Shown in pieces: positions 3,440 through 30,765 of a DNA stretch of 64,000 nucleotides. Both the position numbers and the translations under genes were made by a program. The stretch's first letter is position 1; each line of letters starts with the position of its first letter. The notes under the pieces were generated by a model, which searched no databases, had not been told where the DNA came from, and saw nothing but the letters and a program-made list of their open reading frames with translations. Source of the stretch: Bacteroides cellulosilyticus (GTDB taxonomy: Bacteria; Bacteroidota; Bacteroidia; Bacteroidales; Bacteroidaceae); assembly GCF_020091405.1 (NCBI RefSeq), contig NZ_CP081903.1, forward strand, positions 1,488,001 through 1,552,000, read 5' to 3'.

Positions 3440-5470
3440 ATGAAAAAGAAATTCTTACTTTTATCCCTATGCGTGGCAATAAATACATTTATGACGCCAA
3501 CAACTAATGCTTCTAATCCAATAAAGATTAAGGACAACTATCAAAATAACAGATTTCCATTACAAAGAAAGCCTTATGTGCAGCTTCCCTTAGGAAGCAT
3601 CAAACCCAAAGGCTGGTTAGAAGAAATGCTGATAAGACAGAGGAACGGATTAACCGGCCAGATGGACAAATTGTACCCACTCATGGGAGAACGAAACGGA
3701 TGGCTTGGTGGAAATGGGGATCAATGGGAGAGAGGTCCTTATTGGATAGACGGATTACTGCCTCTGGCCTACATTCTGGATGATAAAGCAATGCAAAAGA
3801 AAGTTCAACCCTGGGTGGAATGGGCACTGAAAAGCCAGAACGATGAAGGATTTTTCGGTCCGGCAACAGATTATCCCGGCGAAGCCGGTCTACAGCGCGA
3901 CAACTCACATGACTGGTGGCCACGCATGGTAATGTTAAAGATTCTGCAGCAATATTATTCGGCAACCGAAGACCAAAGAGTTATCAGCTTCATGAGAAAT
4001 TATTTTGCTTATCAGCTGAAAACATTACCCGAAAAGAAATTAGGGCATTGGACTTTCTGGGCCGAGTTCAGATCTGCTGATAACTTACAAGCAGTCTACT
4101 GGCTATACAATATTACAGGAGATGCTTTCTTACTGGAATTAAGTGAGTTGATTCATAATCAATCTTTCAGTTACCTTGACATGTGGAAACGGGGAGATCT
4201 GAAACGTATCAAGACCATCCACTGCGTAAACTTGGCACAAGGCATTAAAGAACCTGTCATTTATTACCAGCAAGCTAATGACGCAAAATATCTGCATGAA
4301 ACCAAAGAAGCCATTAAGGACATTTGCGAATTTCATGGACAACCCCAAGGAATGTATGGAGGAGACGAAGCCTTACATGGAAGTAATCCTACACAAGGTT
4401 CAGAATTATGCTCTGCCGTAGAGTTCATGTTTTCTCTGGAGAAGATGGGCGAAATTACAGGAGATATAGACTATGCCGACCATTTAGAACGAATAGCCTT
4501 CAATGCACTGCCTACTCAAATTTCTGATGACTTCATGAGCAGACAATACTATCAACAAGTGAATCAGATTGCCGTAACTCGCCAACGCCGCAACTTCGAT
4601 CAGGAACACGAAGGCACAGACAATCTCTTCGGCTTACTGACAGGATATCCATGCTGCACCTCAAACCTTCATCAGGGATGGCCTAAGTTCGCGCAAAGTT
4701 TATGGTATTCCACACCCGATAATGGTCTGTCAGCATTCATATATTCTCCATCCGAAGTTACAGCTAAAGTTGCCGACAACTGTACGGTGACTATTGAAGA
4801 AAAAACTCATTATCCTATGGATGACAAAATTACATTTATCATCCGCTCCATTGATAACAAAGAAAAGAAAGTGGAGTTTCCATTTCACCTGCGCATACCC
4901 AAATGGTGCAAACAAGCTGAAATTACAGTTAATGGAGAAAAAGTACGCACCGCAGAAGGAGGCAATATAGCCGTTATCAAGCAAACCTGGAAAAAAGGAG
5001 ATACCATTGAACTATTCTTGCCAATGGAAGTTTCAGCCTCTACCTGGCACGAAAGCTCCGTAGCTATCGAAAGAGGGCCTCTGGTATATGCACTGAAGAT
5101 GGAAGAAAACTGGGAGCGTAAAGAAATGGACAATAAAGTTTATGGCGATTATTATTATGAAGTAACTTCGTCTTCTCCATGGAATTATGGTTTGGTTGAG
5201 TTTGACCGGAACCGGGCGAATGAAGTAGCCGAGGTTATTATTGATAAGGAAAAACAGAAAACAAACTATCCATGGAACACAACAAATGCCCCGATTGAAA
5301 TAAAGATGAAGGCAAGACGCATCCCCTCATGGCAAATATACAATGGCTCAGCCGGACCTCAGCCATTCTCTTTCTGTCCACTTGCCGAAGGTGAACAACA
5401 AGAAATAACTTTAATCCCATACGGATGCACTACACTAAGAATAACAGAGTTTCCAATGGTTGGTCGATAA
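3440..5470 (+). CDS. GH127-type (DUF1680) beta-L-arabinofuranosidase, secreted
   Basis: 676 residues from the ATG at 3440. The frame is open from an ATG at 3413, but that start overlaps the upstream gene and precedes the signal peptide MKKKFLLLSLCVAINTFM. The protein is of DUF1680 type: an alpha/alpha-barrel with PYVQLPLGSIKPKGWLEEM near the N-terminus, then GPYWIDGLLPLAY. A SELCS motif places Glu322 and Cys324, and a PCC pair places Cys405-Cys406. In characterized GH127 enzymes a Glu-x-Cys and a Cys-Cys pair bind zinc, and one Cys of the pair is the nucleophile. All four positions are present here, so an active hydrolase is likely. The expected reaction is release of terminal beta-L-arabinofuranose in the periplasm, although related GH127 members cleave other pentose-type sugars. 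It is the last gene of this PUL; a perfect palindrome follows it. Confidence 0.85.
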   Translation: MKKKFLLLSLCVAINTFMTPTTNASNPIKIKDNYQNNRFPLQRKPYVQLPLGSIKPKGWLEEMLIRQRNGLTGQMDKLYPLMGERNGWLGGNGDQWERGPYWIDGLLPLAYILDDKAMQKKVQPWVEWALKSQNDEGFFGPATDYPGEAGLQRDNSHDWWPRMVMLKILQQYYSATEDQRVISFMRNYFAYQLKTLPEKKLGHWTFWAEFRSADNLQAVYWLYNITGDAFLLELSELIHNQSFSYLDMWKRGDLKRIKTIHCVNLAQGIKEPVIYYQQANDAKYLHETKEAIKDICEFHGQPQGMYGGDEALHGSNPTQGSELCSAVEFMFSLEKMGEITGDIDYADHLERIAFNALPTQISDDFMSRQYYQQVNQIAVTRQRRNFDQEHEGTDNLFGLLTGYPCCTSNLHQGWPKFAQSLWYSTPDNGLSAFIYSPSEVTAKVADNCTVTIEEKTHYPMDDKITFIIRSIDNKEKKVEFPFHLRIPKWCKQAEITVNGEKVRTAEGGNIAVIKQTWKKGDTIELFLPMEVSASTWHESSVAIERGPLVYALKMEENWERKEMDNKVYGDYYYEVTSSSPWNYGLVEFDRNRANEVAEVIIDKEKQKTNYPWNTTNAPIEIKMKARRIPSWQIYNGSAGPQPFSFCPLAEGEQQEITLIPYGCTTLRITEFPMVGR

Positions 5471-5565
5471 GACTAATTAACGAATAAGTGCCAATCACAA
5501 ATCAAACTGTATTACAATCTCAGGGACTCAATAATAAGGATGCCAACCTATTAAGTTCTTGTATA

Positions 5566-5595
5566 AAGGCTGAAAGAATTAATTCTTTCAGCCTT
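5566..5595. terminator. Perfect 15+15 bp palindrome, likely terminator of the first PUL
   Basis: AAGGCTGAAAGAATT at 5566-5580 is followed directly by its exact reverse complement at 5581-5595. It lies about 95 bp after the GH127 stop. No long T-run follows, so it could equally be an RNA-end hairpin or a protein site. The same CTGAAAG/CTTTCAG core recurs in hairpins at 6842-6874 and 10631-10663. Confidence 0.6.
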
Positions 5596-5758
5596 CACCA
5601 CAGAAACATCCCCCGGCTCTCTGCCACCGAAATTTATTTCTCCGTCAAAGAAGCTGTGATGAAGTCTCAAGGCTGACATACAGTTTCCCAAGAACAGAAG
5701 AACACGAACAAGAAAGTTACTGTTTTTCCGAATATTCCCAAATAAACCGGGCTATTGT
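5596..5758. other. Intergenic stretch between PUL end and Abi_2 promoter
   Basis: No convincing gene. A 42-codon minus-strand frame (5551-5679) runs through the palindrome but has no recognizable relative I can name. A plus-strand frame of 62 codons at 5488-5676 is also unsupported. Confidence 0.4.
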
Positions 5759-5789
5759 TTTGTTTTTTGAGAGAATCGTTTTATCTTTG
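5759..5789 (+). promoter_or_regulatory. Bacteroides promoter for Abi_2 leader RNA
   Basis: A -33 TTTG at 5759-5762, a 19-nt spacer and a -7 box TATCTTTG at 5782-5789 match the Bacteroides housekeeping promoter in both sequence and spacing. Transcription should begin at about 5796, just before the hairpin at 5799-5840. Confidence 0.8.
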
Positions 5790-5795
5790 CGTCAA

Positions 5796-5851
5796 CATGC
5801 TTACCCCGCTTCCCGTCAGATCAGCGCGCTCAGGGTAAGCCTTTTATTTTT
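5796..5851 (+). ncRNA. Putative small structured RNA upstream of Abi_2 gene
   Basis: From the predicted start (about 5796) the transcript forms a hairpin: GCTTACCC at 5799-5806 pairs with GGGTAAGC at 5833-5840. A CGC at 5807-5809 can extend the stem against GCG inside the loop, and a self-complementary AGCGCGCT at 5823-5830 adds possible structure. The hairpin is followed by CTTTTATTTTT at 5841-5851, an intrinsic-terminator-like tail. The Abi_2 ATG comes 9 nt later. The unit therefore looks like a roughly 55-nt RNA with its own terminator, partly read through into the gene. Promoter, stem and U-tract are visible; function is inference. It could be an RNA antitoxin/guide-like partner of the HEPN protein, or simply an attenuator. 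Confidence 0.55.
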
Positions 5852-5859
5852 ACACCCCT

Positions 5860-6756
5860 ATGACTAAAATTCCCTATCCCAAAAATCTCATATCTTTTGC
5901 AGATCAGATTACCTTACTGAAACAACGTGGACTTTGCTTCGGCGATGAATCCAAAGCGTTACACCTATTGCAGAATATTAGCTATTATCGTTTGAGCGGC
6001 TATTGGTATCCTTTGTTAGCGAATAAACAGAACCATATTTTCAAATCCGGCAGTACGTTTGAAACTGCTTACAATATTTATAAGTTCGATAATGAACTCC
6101 GCAAACTGATTATTGCAGAGTTAGAAAAAATAGAAATAGCAGTACGTACACAAATCACTTATATACTTTCTTCACAGTACAATGGTTATTGGTTTACCGA
6201 TGCTTCTCTTTTCAATAATCCTGTGCGCCATGCCCACATGGTAGCCAAGATAGATGAAGAATATCAGCGTAGCGATGAAGAATTTGTAACGGCTTTCAAA
6301 ACTAAATATTCAGACCACTTTCCTCCAAGTTGGATAACAATGGAAATTACCTCTTTCGGTACGCTGTCTATTCTGTATAATAACTTAAAACCCGGACGGG
6401 TAAAACGAAATATTGCGACCTATTTCGGGCTACCGGATACCGTTTTCGCCTCATGGCTGCATAGTATTGTCTACATTCGCAACATTTGTGCGCACCATTG
6501 CCGCTTATGGAACAGGACATTAAGCATTCGTCCCCTGATGCCCCGTTCGCCCCACAAACCGTTTATATCTCTTCCTGCCGGTGGCACACAACAGGTTTAC
6601 TTTATATTGAGCATGATCACTTATCTGCTGAATATCATTAATCCCAACCATTCTTTCGTAGTAAGGCTTAAAGACCTATTAGCAACCTACCCCTCGATTG
6701 ATATACGGGCTATGGGTTTTCCTGCCAACTGGGAAAATGAAGATATTTGGAAATAG
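5860..6756 (+). CDS. Abi_2 (AbiD/AbiF-like) HEPN-type abortive infection protein
   Basis: 298 residues. The N-terminus has the Abi_2 signature: PYPKNLISFADQITLLKQRGL, then a YYRLSGYWYPL block and FDNELRKLIIAELEKIEIAVRTQI. Near the C-terminus RNICAHH (Arg207, Asn208, His212) fits the R-x4-6-H motif of HEPN ribonucleases and is followed by RLWNR. No signal peptide or membrane segment is seen. Abi_2 proteins are known phage-exclusion factors that are thought to cut RNA and stop growth. The gene stands alone between a PUL end and a converging gene, with its own strong promoter and a structured leader RNA immediately upstream. No typical protein antitoxin gene is next to it, which makes the leader RNA the obvious candidate for a control element. 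The family assignment is firm; target and regulation are inference. Confidence 0.9.
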   Translation: MTKIPYPKNLISFADQITLLKQRGLCFGDESKALHLLQNISYYRLSGYWYPLLANKQNHIFKSGSTFETAYNIYKFDNELRKLIIAELEKIEIAVRTQITYILSSQYNGYWFTDASLFNNPVRHAHMVAKIDEEYQRSDEEFVTAFKTKYSDHFPPSWITMEITSFGTLSILYNNLKPGRVKRNIATYFGLPDTVFASWLHSIVYIRNICAHHCRLWNRTLSIRPLMPRSPHKPFISLPAGGTQQVYFILSMITYLLNIINPNHSFVVRLKDLLATYPSIDIRAMGFPANWENEDIWK

Positions 6757-6841
6757 ACCACATTGCATTTACCGGAATATATTTGCAACCGGAGCACCAA
6801 TTCTTTCAGCCCTCCTATCACCCTTATTTATAAGATTTTAC

Positions 6842-6874
6842 GCTGAAAGTATCCTCTGAAGGGATACTTTCAGC
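6842..6874. terminator. Hairpin between converging Abi_2 and DUF3874 genes
   Basis: GCTGAAAGTATCC at 6842-6854 pairs perfectly with GGATACTTTCAGC at 6862-6874, with a 7-nt loop. It lies in the 160-bp gap between two convergent genes and can serve both strands. No strong T-run follows. Confidence 0.6.
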
Positions 6875-6916
6875 TTTCAGTCGTCACCACAACCGCAGAA
6901 ACATTTTTCAGCCCCA

Positions 6917-8182
6917 CTATCTTCTCACCACCTGATACACATTTCCATACTCCGTGTGCCGACGCACCACCCCCGCTTTCAGCAGCACTTGGCCGAAGCG
7001 CATAGGATTGACACTGCGCATGGCAACGGAATTCTTTTGCTGAAGCTCCCTGAAAATCTGGGCAGCCGTAAGGCCGAGACTCTTCTCACCGGGATTCGCC
7101 ACACGAAAATAACTATGAAAAACATCCTCTGCGGGACAAACACGGTAGAACGCCGCATTCTGCGCTTGCAACACCTGCTCCTCTTCTTTGGTGAACCAAT
7201 CACGCCTCCCCGCAAGCAGTTCCGCCTTCAGTTGCGCATAGATCTGGTCGTGCTCTATGTGGGTACAATCGATTATCCGCTCCACTTCCACGCAGAGAAA
7301 ACGACGGCTTCCCGTAGGGTCGGTAAGTAAGTCGAAACGGTTACTGGTACCAATAAAAGAGGCGACACGAGGCAATTGGCGGAAACTCTGCTGATAGGCT
7401 TTACGAATATTCAAATCAGACATTTGCATCAGGTTTTTCAGCAACGGCATTTTGTTTTCAGCATATTTATCGAACTCGTCCATATTCAGCAAGCCCATTT
7501 CCGCCAAAAGGCGTTCCGCCTGCCCTTGCGAAGTAAGCTTCAGATTATCCACATAATATCGCCGCAGAACCATCGGCATCAATGACTTGCAAAATGTGGA
7601 TTTCTGCCGTCCCTGCTCTTGACTTACAAGAATAGGCGCCACACTGTTGGCATGTATACCTGCCAGCCCCGACCATTGCGCGGCAAGCCCCAGCATCCAG
7701 GTGTGAAATCCCTGCACCCAATGCGGACAGCCGGAAACCCGCAAGGCAAGCTGTGTCAGGCGGTCAACACCGTCCCATTGCGGCAATTCCTCCATATAGA
7801 GGTGGAAAGGGTGATAGTCAGAAATATAAGTGGAATAGATATAGCGGTTCAGGTCTTTGTCCCAGCAAGGGATACCCTCAGTATGAGCCTCAATGCAGAA
7901 AGCATTCAGGTTTCGCTTACCCACAGGCAGGAAAGCAAAATCACGCTGTCCGGCAGGACGGAATTCGGTCTCCTCCGTCAACAGATTATAACGGAAATCA
8001 TAACGTTTCGTCAGGAAATCCATGACCTGCCTCGTCAGGCGAACCGTTGTATTCGTGTTGTCTCCGGACTCCGATGCTTCCGGTGTTTTCTTCTTTGCTT
8101 TCCGTTTTTCCGAGAAAGCCAGCAACTGTTGTGCCTCGCACAGCAAGCGGCGTTGTTCCAATGTCATTAATTTCTTTTTCAT
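6917..8182 (-). CDS. DUF3874/VirE-like P-loop protein
   Basis: 421 residues, minus strand. A basic N-terminal stretch (KRKAKKK) precedes a domain with an FHLYMEELPQWDGVDRL segment. A Walker A-like loop follows, SQEQGRQKSTFCKSL, in which the usual GK is replaced by QK, and a Walker B-like LLNMDEFDK comes next. FIGTSNRFDLLTDPTGSRRFL resembles the sensor region of VirE/primase-helicase type ATPases. The C-terminal part (about 360-421) looks like the DUF3874 winged-helix tail. Such genes are frequent in Bacteroides accessory regions and are often divergent from an HU-like gene, as here. The role is unknown; a link to mobile-element or phage-derived DNA replication functions is inferred from the VirE family. 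It has no obvious operon partner. Confidence 0.75.
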   Translation of the reverse strand: MKKKLMTLEQRRLLCEAQQLLAFSEKRKAKKKTPEASESGDNTNTTVRLTRQVMDFLTKRYDFRYNLLTEETEFRPAGQRDFAFLPVGKRNLNAFCIEAHTEGIPCWDKDLNRYIYSTYISDYHPFHLYMEELPQWDGVDRLTQLALRVSGCPHWVQGFHTWMLGLAAQWSGLAGIHANSVAPILVSQEQGRQKSTFCKSLMPMVLRRYYVDNLKLTSQGQAERLLAEMGLLNMDEFDKYAENKMPLLKNLMQMSDLNIRKAYQQSFRQLPRVASFIGTSNRFDLLTDPTGSRRFLCVEVERIIDCTHIEHDQIYAQLKAELLAGRRDWFTKEEEQVLQAQNAAFYRVCPAEDVFHSYFRVANPGEKSLGLTAAQIFRELQQKNSVAMRSVNPMRFGQVLLKAGVVRRHTEYGNVYQVVRR

Positions 8183-8347
8183 AACTTCTTTTCATTTAAA
8201 TAGTAAACAGGTTTCGTTTTGCCAGTACCGACGCTACGAATTTACTACAGCGTGGAAGCGTTTTGCAAGCGTTTCACCAACTATTTTTCTTAAAACACAG
8301 TTAGAAAGAAAGTAAGGACTTCCATAGGAAAATCTTACTAATATCAC
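8183..8347. other. Divergent intergenic region, DUF3874 side
   Basis: This is the upstream half of the 338-bp gap between the divergent DUF3874 and HU genes. I see no minus-strand TAnnTTTG box and no supported ORF. The right half is described under the -7 box and repeat entries. Confidence 0.4.
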
Positions 8348-8355
8348 TACCTTTG
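8348..8355 (+). promoter_or_regulatory. -7 box upstream of HU-like gene
   Basis: TACCTTTG matches TAnnTTTG. There is no TTTG at the expected -33 spacing. Transcription would begin near 8362, leaving a leader of about 160 nt that contains the inverted repeats at 8372-8451. Confidence 0.5.
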
Positions 8356-8371
8356 TGTGCTGACTTAGAAA

Positions 8372-8451
8372 CGACCGACTGGAGTTATTCACTCGAACAA
8401 CTTCAGTCGGTCGCTCTACCAACTCCAGTCACTCATCCGACCGACTCCAGT
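8372..8451. repeat. Cluster of inverted and direct repeats in HU-gene leader
   Basis: CGACCGACTG at 8372-8381 and CAGTCGGTCG at 8404-8413 form a perfect 10-bp inverted repeat. CGACCGACT recurs directly from 8438. ACTGGAGT (8378-8385) is inverted relative to two copies of ACTCCAGT (8422-8429 and 8444-8451). The block lies between the -7 box and the start codon of the HU-like gene. It could be an RNA regulatory structure or an autoregulatory binding site of the HU-like protein. Confidence 0.75.
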
Positions 8452-8520
8452 GGTTCACTTTCAAAACAGCACCTTCGGGTCAACAAGCATATACATTTAA
8501 AGCATTAAAATACAAGCATT

Positions 8521-9159
8521 ATGGCAATAGTTTACGACTGGTACGAGAACCCCAACGCAGAAGGGGAACCGGAAGAAAGAGGACTGCACCCCCGCCCACT
8601 GCTCAACGGCAAGGTAAGTATGGAGAAACTGTATTATCGGGTACATGAACGTAGTTCGCTCAGCGTGGGTGACGCAAAAAGTGCAATAGACACCTTGGCA
8701 CAGCTTTGCGGAGAAGAGCTACGCGAAGGTCGTGAGGTACACATCGAAGGATTGGGATACTTTGCCCCTACCCTGGAGGCCACACAGAAAGTAACCCGCC
8801 AAACCAAGAACAAACATTTGAAACTACGTTTGAAAGGCATCAGCTTCCGCCCGGACATCCGCCTGAAAGCTGCGCTGACAGGCGTTACCGCCACCCAAAG
8901 CAAATACACGCGCCACTCCCTGCGACTCTCCGAAATAGAGATCGACATGCGCCTGAAAGAGTATTTCGCGGAACATGACCTGCTGCTTCGCATCGACTTT
9001 CAGGAATTGTGCGGCATGGCTCGCACCACCGCCAACAACCATCTGCAACGGTTGCAAAAAGAAGGTAAACTGATGAACGTGGGAAGACGTGCACAACCCA
9101 TCTATCGGCCTATGCCGGGATATTACGGAATGTCAAGGGATGCAGCACCCAAAAGATAA
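8521..9159 (+). CDS. HU-like (HU-HIG type) DNA-binding protein with C-terminal winged-helix-like region
   Basis: 212 residues. Residues about 1-125 match the Bacteroidetes HU-type domain: IVYDWYENPN at the start, SVGDAKSAIDTLAQLCGEELREGREVHIEGLGYFAPTL, then a KLRLKGISFRPD arm segment. Residues about 140-205 contain IDFQELCGMARTTANNHLQRLQKEGKLMNVG, a helix-turn-helix with a winged-helix look. That tail is longer than in plain HU proteins (about 90-100 residues). The protein should bind DNA as a dimer. It is divergent from the DUF3874 gene and preceded by a repeat-rich leader that it may recognize. Directly after its stop lies a short copy of the CTGAAAGCACTTCC repeat shared with the next two modules. 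Confidence 0.85.
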   Translation: MAIVYDWYENPNAEGEPEERGLHPRPLLNGKVSMEKLYYRVHERSSLSVGDAKSAIDTLAQLCGEELREGREVHIEGLGYFAPTLEATQKVTRQTKNKHLKLRLKGISFRPDIRLKAALTGVTATQSKYTRHSLRLSEIEIDMRLKEYFAEHDLLLRIDFQELCGMARTTANNHLQRLQKEGKLMNVGRRAQPIYRPMPGYYGMSRDAAPKR

Positions 9160-30631: not shown

Positions 30632-30637
30632 CACTGT

Positions 30638-30699
30638 GTTTTTCATAGTATTAGATTTAAGGTTAACAAAGGTTGGAGTACAGCGGTACTCCTTTTTTT
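30638..30699 (+). ncRNA. Putative free small RNA (about 60 nt) with intrinsic terminator
   Basis: A short AT-rich transcript starting near 30638 would end in a hairpin GGAGTAC (30675-30681) / GTACTCC (30686-30692), loop AGCG, followed directly by seven T (30693-30699). No ORF of note lies inside. The next gene (HTCS at 30807) has its own -7 box at 30766-30773, so this unit need not be its leader. I have the impression that similar leader sequences occur at other Bacteroides loci, but I cannot verify that here. Alternative: an attenuated long leader of the HTCS gene. Confidence 0.6.
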
Positions 30700-30765
30700 A
30701 TGCCCATACCTTACAGGGAGGTTCACAAAAATGCCATTTTGATTGAAGTATTGCCAATAATACCC

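Follow-up and report, generated by a model that had tools for sequence, protein, structure and literature searches.

A system composed of an AbiF toxin and a non-coding RNA antitoxin was described in 2025, and the accessible part of that report states that the RNA, RCd22, neutralises AbiFCd by direct binding, in cis as well as in trans, and that mutations of the RCd22 structure abolish neutralisation whereas compensatory ones do not (PMC12373285). For the Prevotellaceae AbiF-ncRNA complex (8VZ6), the accessible text gives a dimer whose monomers each bind one RNA, and two bulge nucleotides of this RNA are reported there to block the RNase (PMC12737573). Free-standing RNAs of this kind are also on record in phages; in the portions available, the paper on cyanophage S-CREM1 further mentions three phage genomes in Rfam and leaves the role of the phage abiF RNA open (PMC9964418), and a review describes it as 'unconfirmed' (PMC12197685).

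The locus considered here (positions 5759-6756, forward strand) lies in a window of 64,000 nucleotides from the genome of Bacteroides cellulosilyticus, which amounts to 6.94 Mb in one contig. A sequence-only reading had noticed a promoter, a hairpin, a T-rich tract and a HEPN gene at this place, and all four are confirmed. The Bacteroidetes promoter consensus is TTTG-N19-TAnnTTTG. Direct reading gives a -33 element TTTG at 5759-5762 and, after a spacing of 19 nt, a -7 element TATCTTTG at 5782-5789, the promoter spanning 5759-5789 and fitting this consensus. It is followed on the same strand by a predicted antitoxin RNA with putative ends at 5796 and 5851, which includes a compact hairpin (5799-5840) and a T-rich tract, TTTTATTTTT (5842-5851), the presumed point of termination or read-through. 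The Abi_2/AbiD-F HEPN ribonuclease toxin gene (298 aa) begins with an ATG at 5860 and its stop codon ends at 6756; the order of T-rich tail and Abi_2 start was thus read correctly, whereas the distance between them, given as 9 nt, is in fact 8 bases. The upstream neighbour is a GH127 gene and the downstream neighbour a VapE-domain gene on the opposite strand. A 62-aa ORF at 5488-5676 lies upstream of the promoter.

The protein matches PF07751 over the complete profile (1-184 of 184; 201.7 bits against a cut-off of 25.6, E 1.7e-59), PADLOC AbiD (E 3.6e-80) and, over residues 3-298, PDB 8VZ6_A (265.7 bits, E 3.8e-78). The HEPN motif RNICAHH previously read in it is present at residues 207-213 (6478-6498, forward strand), where it aligns with the 8VZ6 motif and has the R-N-x3-H form; R207, N208, H212 and H213 are invariant across 20 homologues. 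From these matches, the protein is predicted to be a toxic anti-phage ribonuclease.

The 42-nt hairpin reads GCTTACCC-CGC-(14 nt)-GCG-CGCTCA-GGGTAAGC on the forward strand. It is made up of an 8-bp P1 stem, in which GCTTACCC (5799-5806) pairs with GGGTAAGC (5833-5840) and which shows compensatory changes among relatives; a 3-bp P2 stem formed by CGC (5807-5809), invariant in alignments A2 and A3, and GCG (5824-5826); a 14-nt loop, TTCCCGTCAGATCA (5810-5823), mostly invariant in linked and orphan copies; and a 6-nt 3' bulge, CGCTCA (5827-5832), at the position of the CAAAU bulge of RF03085-type RNAs, both 3' strands being supported by alignments of relatives. Its minimum free energy is -15 kcal/mol (z -2.46), with 3 of 200 shuffles equally good; folding energy taken by itself is modest evidence, and the hairpin is accepted as real because it is conserved in relatives. 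A generic terminator scan did not list the hairpin, with its 6-nt bulge; a T-rich tract does follow it, both here and in linked relatives. Judging from the sequence and by analogy with the C. difficile relative, the RNA would be discrete and terminated. No tandem array of the kind seen in ToxI was found for the antitoxin RNA, the core pattern occurring once in the 64 kb at up to 3 mismatches, and no second copy was found in the genome, in which the RNA model R1 matches once at E ≤ 0.001.

A protein search of genome contigs yielded 28 loci, of which the 17 closest (L033-L049; 49-88% identity to the window protein over the best segment) were examined in detail; where named, relatives of the gene come mainly from Bacteroides, Parabacteroides and further Bacteroidota. 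The block of promoter, hairpin and T-tract is kept nearly letter for letter in all 17, each time before the gene, and in 18 of 18 loci (the window and these relatives) the distance from TAnnTTTG to the stem is exactly 9 nt. The block is still present at 49% protein identity (L047, L048), it reaches Saprospiraceae (L046), and by eye the sequence farther upstream diverges in many of the 17 (L036, L039 and L042 share some of it). The toxin frame is broken or interrupted in two, L049 and L047. Among the other 11 relatives, abiF-like hairpins with different cores were seen by eye at L050-L053 and L056, the remaining loci having different hairpins, no hairpin, or being unread. Of 59 Abi_2 ORFs, with duplicate loci included, 43 were assigned the RNA by automatic parsing; at least 5 of the 16 misses carry the RNA by eye (L042, L045, L016, L026, L011), and at L002, L009, L032 and L054 inspection by eye found none. 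In the linked set A3 (12 distinct copies, with L063 in place of L041, which has an identical RNA), 99.2% of stem cells are paired and three pairs are altered on both sides, and pair types show no greater variety than after shuffling (463 of 500 shuffles as high), so that covariation within this close set is slight. L047 and L048 were omitted from A5 and A6, a stop being reported in L047, and L054 and L058 from A6, with stops reported in L058.

Lack of hairpin conservation upstream of homologues had been named by the sequence-only reading as the result that would speak against it; the hairpin proved to be conserved, and its stem pairs co-vary. That reading had proposed either an RNA antitoxin or a cofactor. 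The antitoxin half is upheld by this conservation and by the AbiF relatives, and a cofactor role is less likely. The hairpin could instead be merely a cis attenuator, restraining read-through into the toxin gene and inactive in trans. Hairpin and T-rich tract do sit between promoter and ORF at linked loci, and the accessible part of the RCd22 report describes an action by termination as well (PMC12373285); this account is nonetheless quite improbable, given that RCd22 is active in trans, that the mostly invariant loop and bulge exceed what a terminator needs, and that stem-supported copies exist without an Abi_2 gene in the surrounding sequence examined. The RNA could also serve as a guide or an activating cofactor by which the HEPN nuclease is aimed, in the manner of Cas13. 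The kinship of Abi_2 and Cas13, mentioned in the sequence-only reading, is in print (PMC12165695), and AbiF is proposed as an ancestor of Cas13 in the available portions of two papers (PMC12165695, PMC12737573). Against a guide stands the absence, on inspection of the locus, of any repeat-spacer array or variable spacer of the Cas13/CRISPR type: there is a lone hairpin with a near-constant loop and bulge, its variable P1 is paired with itself, and the RNAs of relatives function as antitoxins. A guide carries very little probability and was rejected as unlikely, a variable segment being absent.

The antitoxin RNA of the window has the P1-P2-loop-P2'-bulge-P1' order of RF03085, a family said to originate from Weinberg et al. 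2017; stem, 3-bp inner stem, loop and a 3' bulge of about 6 nt are shared in identical order. The window type differs in its loop (UUCCC..AGANCA), its bulge (CGCUCA), its 8-bp P1 and the lack of a 5' A bulge, and intermediates (L016, L030, L031) bridge the two. The RF03085 model, whose threshold is 37 bits, found nothing at E ≤ 10 in 1281 bases of the window locus; elsewhere in the genome it gave a single 19-bit match, and 7 window-type loci searched at E ≤ 5 gave none. It matches 11 of the 16 Abi_2 loci searched, the five misses being the window-type L005 and four loci with CGCTTC cores. Since the model detects these 11 loci but neither the window RNA nor those of the 7 window-type loci, the window RNA is considered a sister subtype missed by the Rfam model. 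Remoter AbiF genes (32-45% identity) are preceded by hairpins of the same layout with cores CGCCTCT..GCG-NACC and AGCCTCT..GCT-CAAAT, plus intermediates. On a tree of 64 Abi_2 proteins built by a quick method, 57 were labelled with an RNA type by pattern (26 window type, 20 CGC/NACC and 11 AGC/CAAAU) and the 7 unlabelled ones, of which at least L045 and L016 carry the RNA by eye, were left uncounted. The three types require two changes, the minimum possible, against a mean of 25.2 for shuffled labels (0 of 200 as low), a comparison which overstates independence since long branches and near-copies are present. A paralogous Abi_2 clade served as a negative control: by eye, no such hairpin precedes the gene at any of 10 loci, namely the second Abi_2 gene of this genome (G000 C1:6050846) and 9 relatives, and in several of them the promoter nearly abuts the ATG. 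Taken together, the 8VZ6 match, the RF03085 layout that escapes the model and the minimal number of changes on the tree show that the window locus is a new RNA subtype within the known AbiF RNA-antitoxin system. It adds a Bacteroidota subtype, overlooked by the current Rfam model, to an RNA-antitoxin system thought to be ancestral to Cas13.

It is highly likely that 5759-6756 forms a two-part RNA toxin-antitoxin or abortive-infection module of the AbiF kind, and the hairpin RNA very probably acts as the antidote of the toxin; the points counted against such a module are the missing RF03085 match, the slight covariation, the unlisted terminator and the lone hairpin. The mechanism proposed is based on the protein matches, the reported role of the bulge in 8VZ6, the invariant HEPN residues and the RCd22 results. 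A single promoter would drive both the RNA and the toxin gene, with most transcripts expected to end at the hairpin and T-rich tract as an RNA of about 55 nt and read-through yielding the toxin mRNA. As reported for relatives, the hairpin would bind the HEPN protein, a dimer in 8VZ6, through the conserved loop and 3' bulge and would thereby block the R207/H212 active site. Upon infection, loss of the short RNA would free the RNase, and the cell would be stopped before phage maturation. Free-standing RNA copies in phages may then be decoy antitoxins directed against host AbiF.

Such toxin-less copies were sought in viral contigs. An exact-pattern scan of IMG/VR for the window-type hairpin found it at 6 loci, and at 5 of these the surrounding sequence contains no Abi_2 match; three core patterns returned 58, at least 120 and 86 loci; reversed-pattern controls, run for the first and third patterns, gave 12 loci against 58 and 0 against 86. 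Among the 268 matches listed, P1 is paired at 6 or more of 7 positions in 198 (43/59, 102/123 and 53/86 for the three patterns), where 20%, 31% and 15% would be expected from swapped 3' contexts; the other 70 include chance matches. These 198 reduce to 160 copies with distinct letters, which are not independent events, and 154 of them lack an Abi_2 ORF in the surrounding locus (6 have one) in viral records that may be fragments and some of which, by their lengths, appear to duplicate named isolates (L310 and Acj61, L301 and LittleE, L304 and Lolly9). When whole records were searched with Pfam, Abi_2 turned up in 2 of 50 for the window-type pattern and in 3 of 39 of the other types, the latter mostly purposely chosen long contigs, two of them already known to be linked. 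The model R1, which was built from toxin-linked copies alone, matches 24 of 57 viral loci at full length (E ≤ 5.1e-5; L072 among them has Abi_2) and the remaining 33 over the core or less; at E ≤ 1 it matched none of the 12 reversed-pattern control loci. Of 10 orphan-contig proteins, 3 matched no PHROG family; the 7 that matched one, in one case at the borderline, include terminases (L067, L087) and a tail fibre (L073). A TAnnTTT(G/A) promoter stands 7-10 nt before the stem in 8 of the 22 window-type viral orphans listed, while 7.6% of random 45-mers contain this motif anywhere. Most window-type orphans are without a recognisable promoter.

Complete genomes of named phages carry the RNA too. 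A blastn search of 50,697 phage records with the RF03085 consensus returned 74 records at E ≤ 10, many of them weak; 53 are mycobacteriophages, and the others include cyanophages and Acinetobacter, Aeromonas, Salicola, Arthrobacter, Roseobacter and Rhizobium phages. A further search with the RF03085-type consensus returned 24 records among phage isolates, mostly weak, and the window RNA nothing convincing in INPHARED (3 weak matches, E 2-5). In ten complete phages inspected (Thibault, Acj61, CGphi29, PZL-Ah8, S-SZBM1, S-CREM1, Mimi, CRP-143, T7-Ah and Lolly9), exactly one RF03085 match at E ≤ 0.01 was found in each, above the curated threshold in nine (the exception is Mimi, 33.0 bits); 14 control genomes gave no RF03085 match, and Pfam found Abi_2 in none of the ten. 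In the T7-like Aeromonas phages the RNA occupies the connector-scaffold gene gap, where on our reading a phage-type promoter sequence (CTGACTATAGGG) precedes it, and in CRP-143 the scaffold-capsid gap; the related gaps of vB_Eco_Mak and JELG-KS1 contain different hairpins instead. Between PZL-Ah8 and T7-Ah a compensatory change is seen in the connector-scaffold gap (CCCGCC/GGCGGG versus CCCGAC/GTCGGG). The CGphi29 RNA is identical to that of PZL-Ah8 at 43 of 44 letters (97.7%), the rest of the 401-base query being unshared.

The RNA lies within or beside tRNA genes in S-SZBM1, S-CREM1, Mimi and Lolly9 and no more than 300 nt away in Thibault, and 30 of the 154 viral orphans listed are within 300 nt of a tRNA, compared with 6.1% for positions drawn at random from these loci. 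GIY-YIG genes adjoin the RNA in Acj61 and in plasmid pPP10. These neighbourhoods could point to a different function of the phage copies, for instance in binding a phage protein or in processing within tRNA arrays, which is possible but unlikely: the other 124 of the 154 are not near a tRNA, and what is conserved is the loop and bulge, as in toxin-linked copies.

Bacterial chromosomes also hold orphan RNAs, some of them remnant-like, so that toxin loss alone can create an orphan. R1 matches 20 of 158 same-genus and 44 of 395 same-phylum genomes, and an Abi_2 ORF is present at 33 of the 55 best bacterial R1 loci and absent from the surrounding sequence of 22, a few of these being at contig ends. 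At L351 and L369 the RNA is followed by the apparent start of an AbiF frame, whereas other bacterial RNAs (L354, L359, L376, L387-L394) look solitary. The phage copies might accordingly be decaying remnants or passengers from former toxin-antitoxin pairs, which we consider rather unlikely, since the viral stems maintain their pairing through compensatory change. In window-type orphans, a set of 11 viral and 2 plasmid copies selected to fit a single alignment length with 7 or more of the 8 P1 pairs formed, 97.2% of cells are paired and 7 of 8 P1 pairs are altered on both sides, with 0 of 500 shuffles as high in pairing or score. In two RF03085-type orphan sets that were unselected for pairing, 459 of 606 cells are paired against 340.2 (sd 8.7) after shuffling, and 326 of 438 against 221.8 (sd 8.3). 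The RNAs moreover recur in complete genomes of unrelated phages without Abi_2, and viral contig L277 carries two of different subtypes 71 nt apart.

The toxin-less copies suggest that phages may carry the antidote in order to disarm AbiF defence. It is reasonably probable that stand-alone abiF-type RNAs constitute a widespread phage RNA counter-defence, matched by subtype to the AbiF clades of the hosts and neutralising AbiF HEPN toxins on infection. Two single-protein searches (73 and 64 records) place phage Abi_2 genes in records from Streptococcus, Clostridioides, Listeria, Lactococcus and similar hosts, which differ from the hosts of orphan-RNA phages, in searches that do not list all phage Abi_2. 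Plasmid Abi_2 genes occur in Acinetobacter, Synechococcus, Arthrobacter and Rhizobium, which are also host genera of orphan-bearing phages; no general link of plasmid Abi_2 to the RNA was found, since the window-type RNA has one strong place on plasmids, pPP10, and the RF03085 consensus found just 2 plasmid records at E ≤ 1. By its title, Rince et al. 2000 concerns a DNA region of lactococcal phage sk1 that protects phage 712 from AbiF. RF03085 has no match at E ≤ 5 in the sk1 and 712 genomes, and in this limited search the idea that the sk1 region is an abiF RNA was not supported, a loose structure scan giving the same two spurious matches in both. A counter-defence role for phage abiF RNAs is not proposed in the accessible parts of the open-licence literature consulted (PMC9964418, PMC12197685, PMC12165695, PMC12737573, PMC12804078 and PMC12948488), a set that excludes Zilberzwige-Tal et al. 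2025; single phage copies have been annotated previously, and no priority is claimed for this role. If stand-alone abiF RNAs do neutralise AbiF, many phage genomes would contain a very short, protein-free counter-defence element of about 37-42 nt, and the RNA subtype of a phage would predict which AbiF is defeated.

Compared with known systems, the window locus shares with ToxIN an RNA antitoxin and an RNase toxin. ToxN does not belong to the HEPN proteins; ToxI forms a repeated pseudoknot, and the antitoxins of classical type III systems come as repeat arrays, whereas the window has one hairpin. Phages can in principle escape ToxIN by supplying antitoxin RNA. T4-like phages counter it with a protein, TifA, according to the part of the report available (PMC10853763). 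Prevotellaceae AbiF/AbiFr (8VZ6; Zilberzwige-Tal et al., Cell 2025) resembles the window in its homologous HEPN protein with the same catalytic motif and, as far as the accessible description in a review goes, in a hairpin RNA with an inhibitory single-stranded bulge. AbiFCd/RCd22 of the C. difficile phage phi027 resembles the window in its RNA antitoxin, here a predicted one, between promoter and Abi_2 gene, in its HEPN toxin and, presumably, in leader termination; in the accessible account, RCd22 has two RF03085 motifs, whereas the window has one hairpin that RF03085 does not match and a Bacteroidetes-type promoter (PMC12373285). The abiF sRNA of cyanophage S-CREM1 shares with the orphans described here its free-standing position in a lytic phage, but in the available text it is a single annotation (PMC9964418), while the present analysis brings together many toxin-less viral records, their covariation and a proposed role.

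The module is bracketed by short direct repeats resembling CTTTCAGCCTTCACCACA, one set of which lies at 5581-5596, 6799-6814 and 6863-6878 of the window and the other at 5585-5602 and 6874-6891. These repeats may delimit an inserted unit; alternatively, they may be shared parts of terminators. The module is adjoined by a VapE-domain/DUF3874 gene and an HU-HIG gene (6917-9159), a pair which suggests a mobile or integrated segment. Elsewhere in the window, the Rfam sRNA BTncRNA_FopS is matched at 30636-30702 (78.2 bits).

RNAs of the abiF type also occur without an intact toxin gene. Solitary window-type RNAs are found in Bacteroidota chromosomes (L354, L357, L359, L376 and L387-L394), with no Abi_2 gene within the stretch examined; the one at L388 stands 5' of a gene whose product appears ATPase-like by eye. 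At L049, which is the same stretch as L017, the RNA precedes a broken Abi_2 gene with an interrupted toxin frame and itself carries a mismatch at the first P1 pair, as if RNA and toxin gene were decaying jointly. The Persicobacter plasmid pPP10 (L336) lacks Abi_2 and carries window-type RNAs at 4008-4049 and 4901-4942, on either side of a GIY-YIG nuclease gene (4069-4893); these RNAs may have been taken over by another gene, or the pair may be mobile as one.

Imperfect closure of the outer stem P1 is encountered among viral copies. In the AAGCCTCT..ATGCTCAAAT copies (L260, L248, L291, L292, L281, L318 and L253, as well as L262, L276 and L295), P1 is incompletely closed on the 3' side, which runs on into other sequence common to these copies, and they look like larger RNAs in which the abiF loop is embedded. 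The GTGCCAGACA-core-(TCC) form, with an imperfect P1, is borne by a family of similar viral contigs (L069, L070, L071, L076, L080, L082, L083, L088, L092, L095, L099, L101, L102, L104, L106, L109, L112, L113 and L115), most of which have a 3' sequence in common that leads into a possible start codon.

Tandem arrangements were also observed. Viral contig L277 carries an abiF RNA of the CGC type together with one of the AGC/CAAAU type at 8180-8330, adjoining a tRNA, and the arrangement in L279 is similar. On a Mcinerneyibacteriota contig (L052), two consecutive abiF-type RNAs (about 550-800) lie 5' of an Abi_2 gene, a pair resembling RCd22, the two-motif RNA antitoxin of AbiFCd in Clostridioides difficile.
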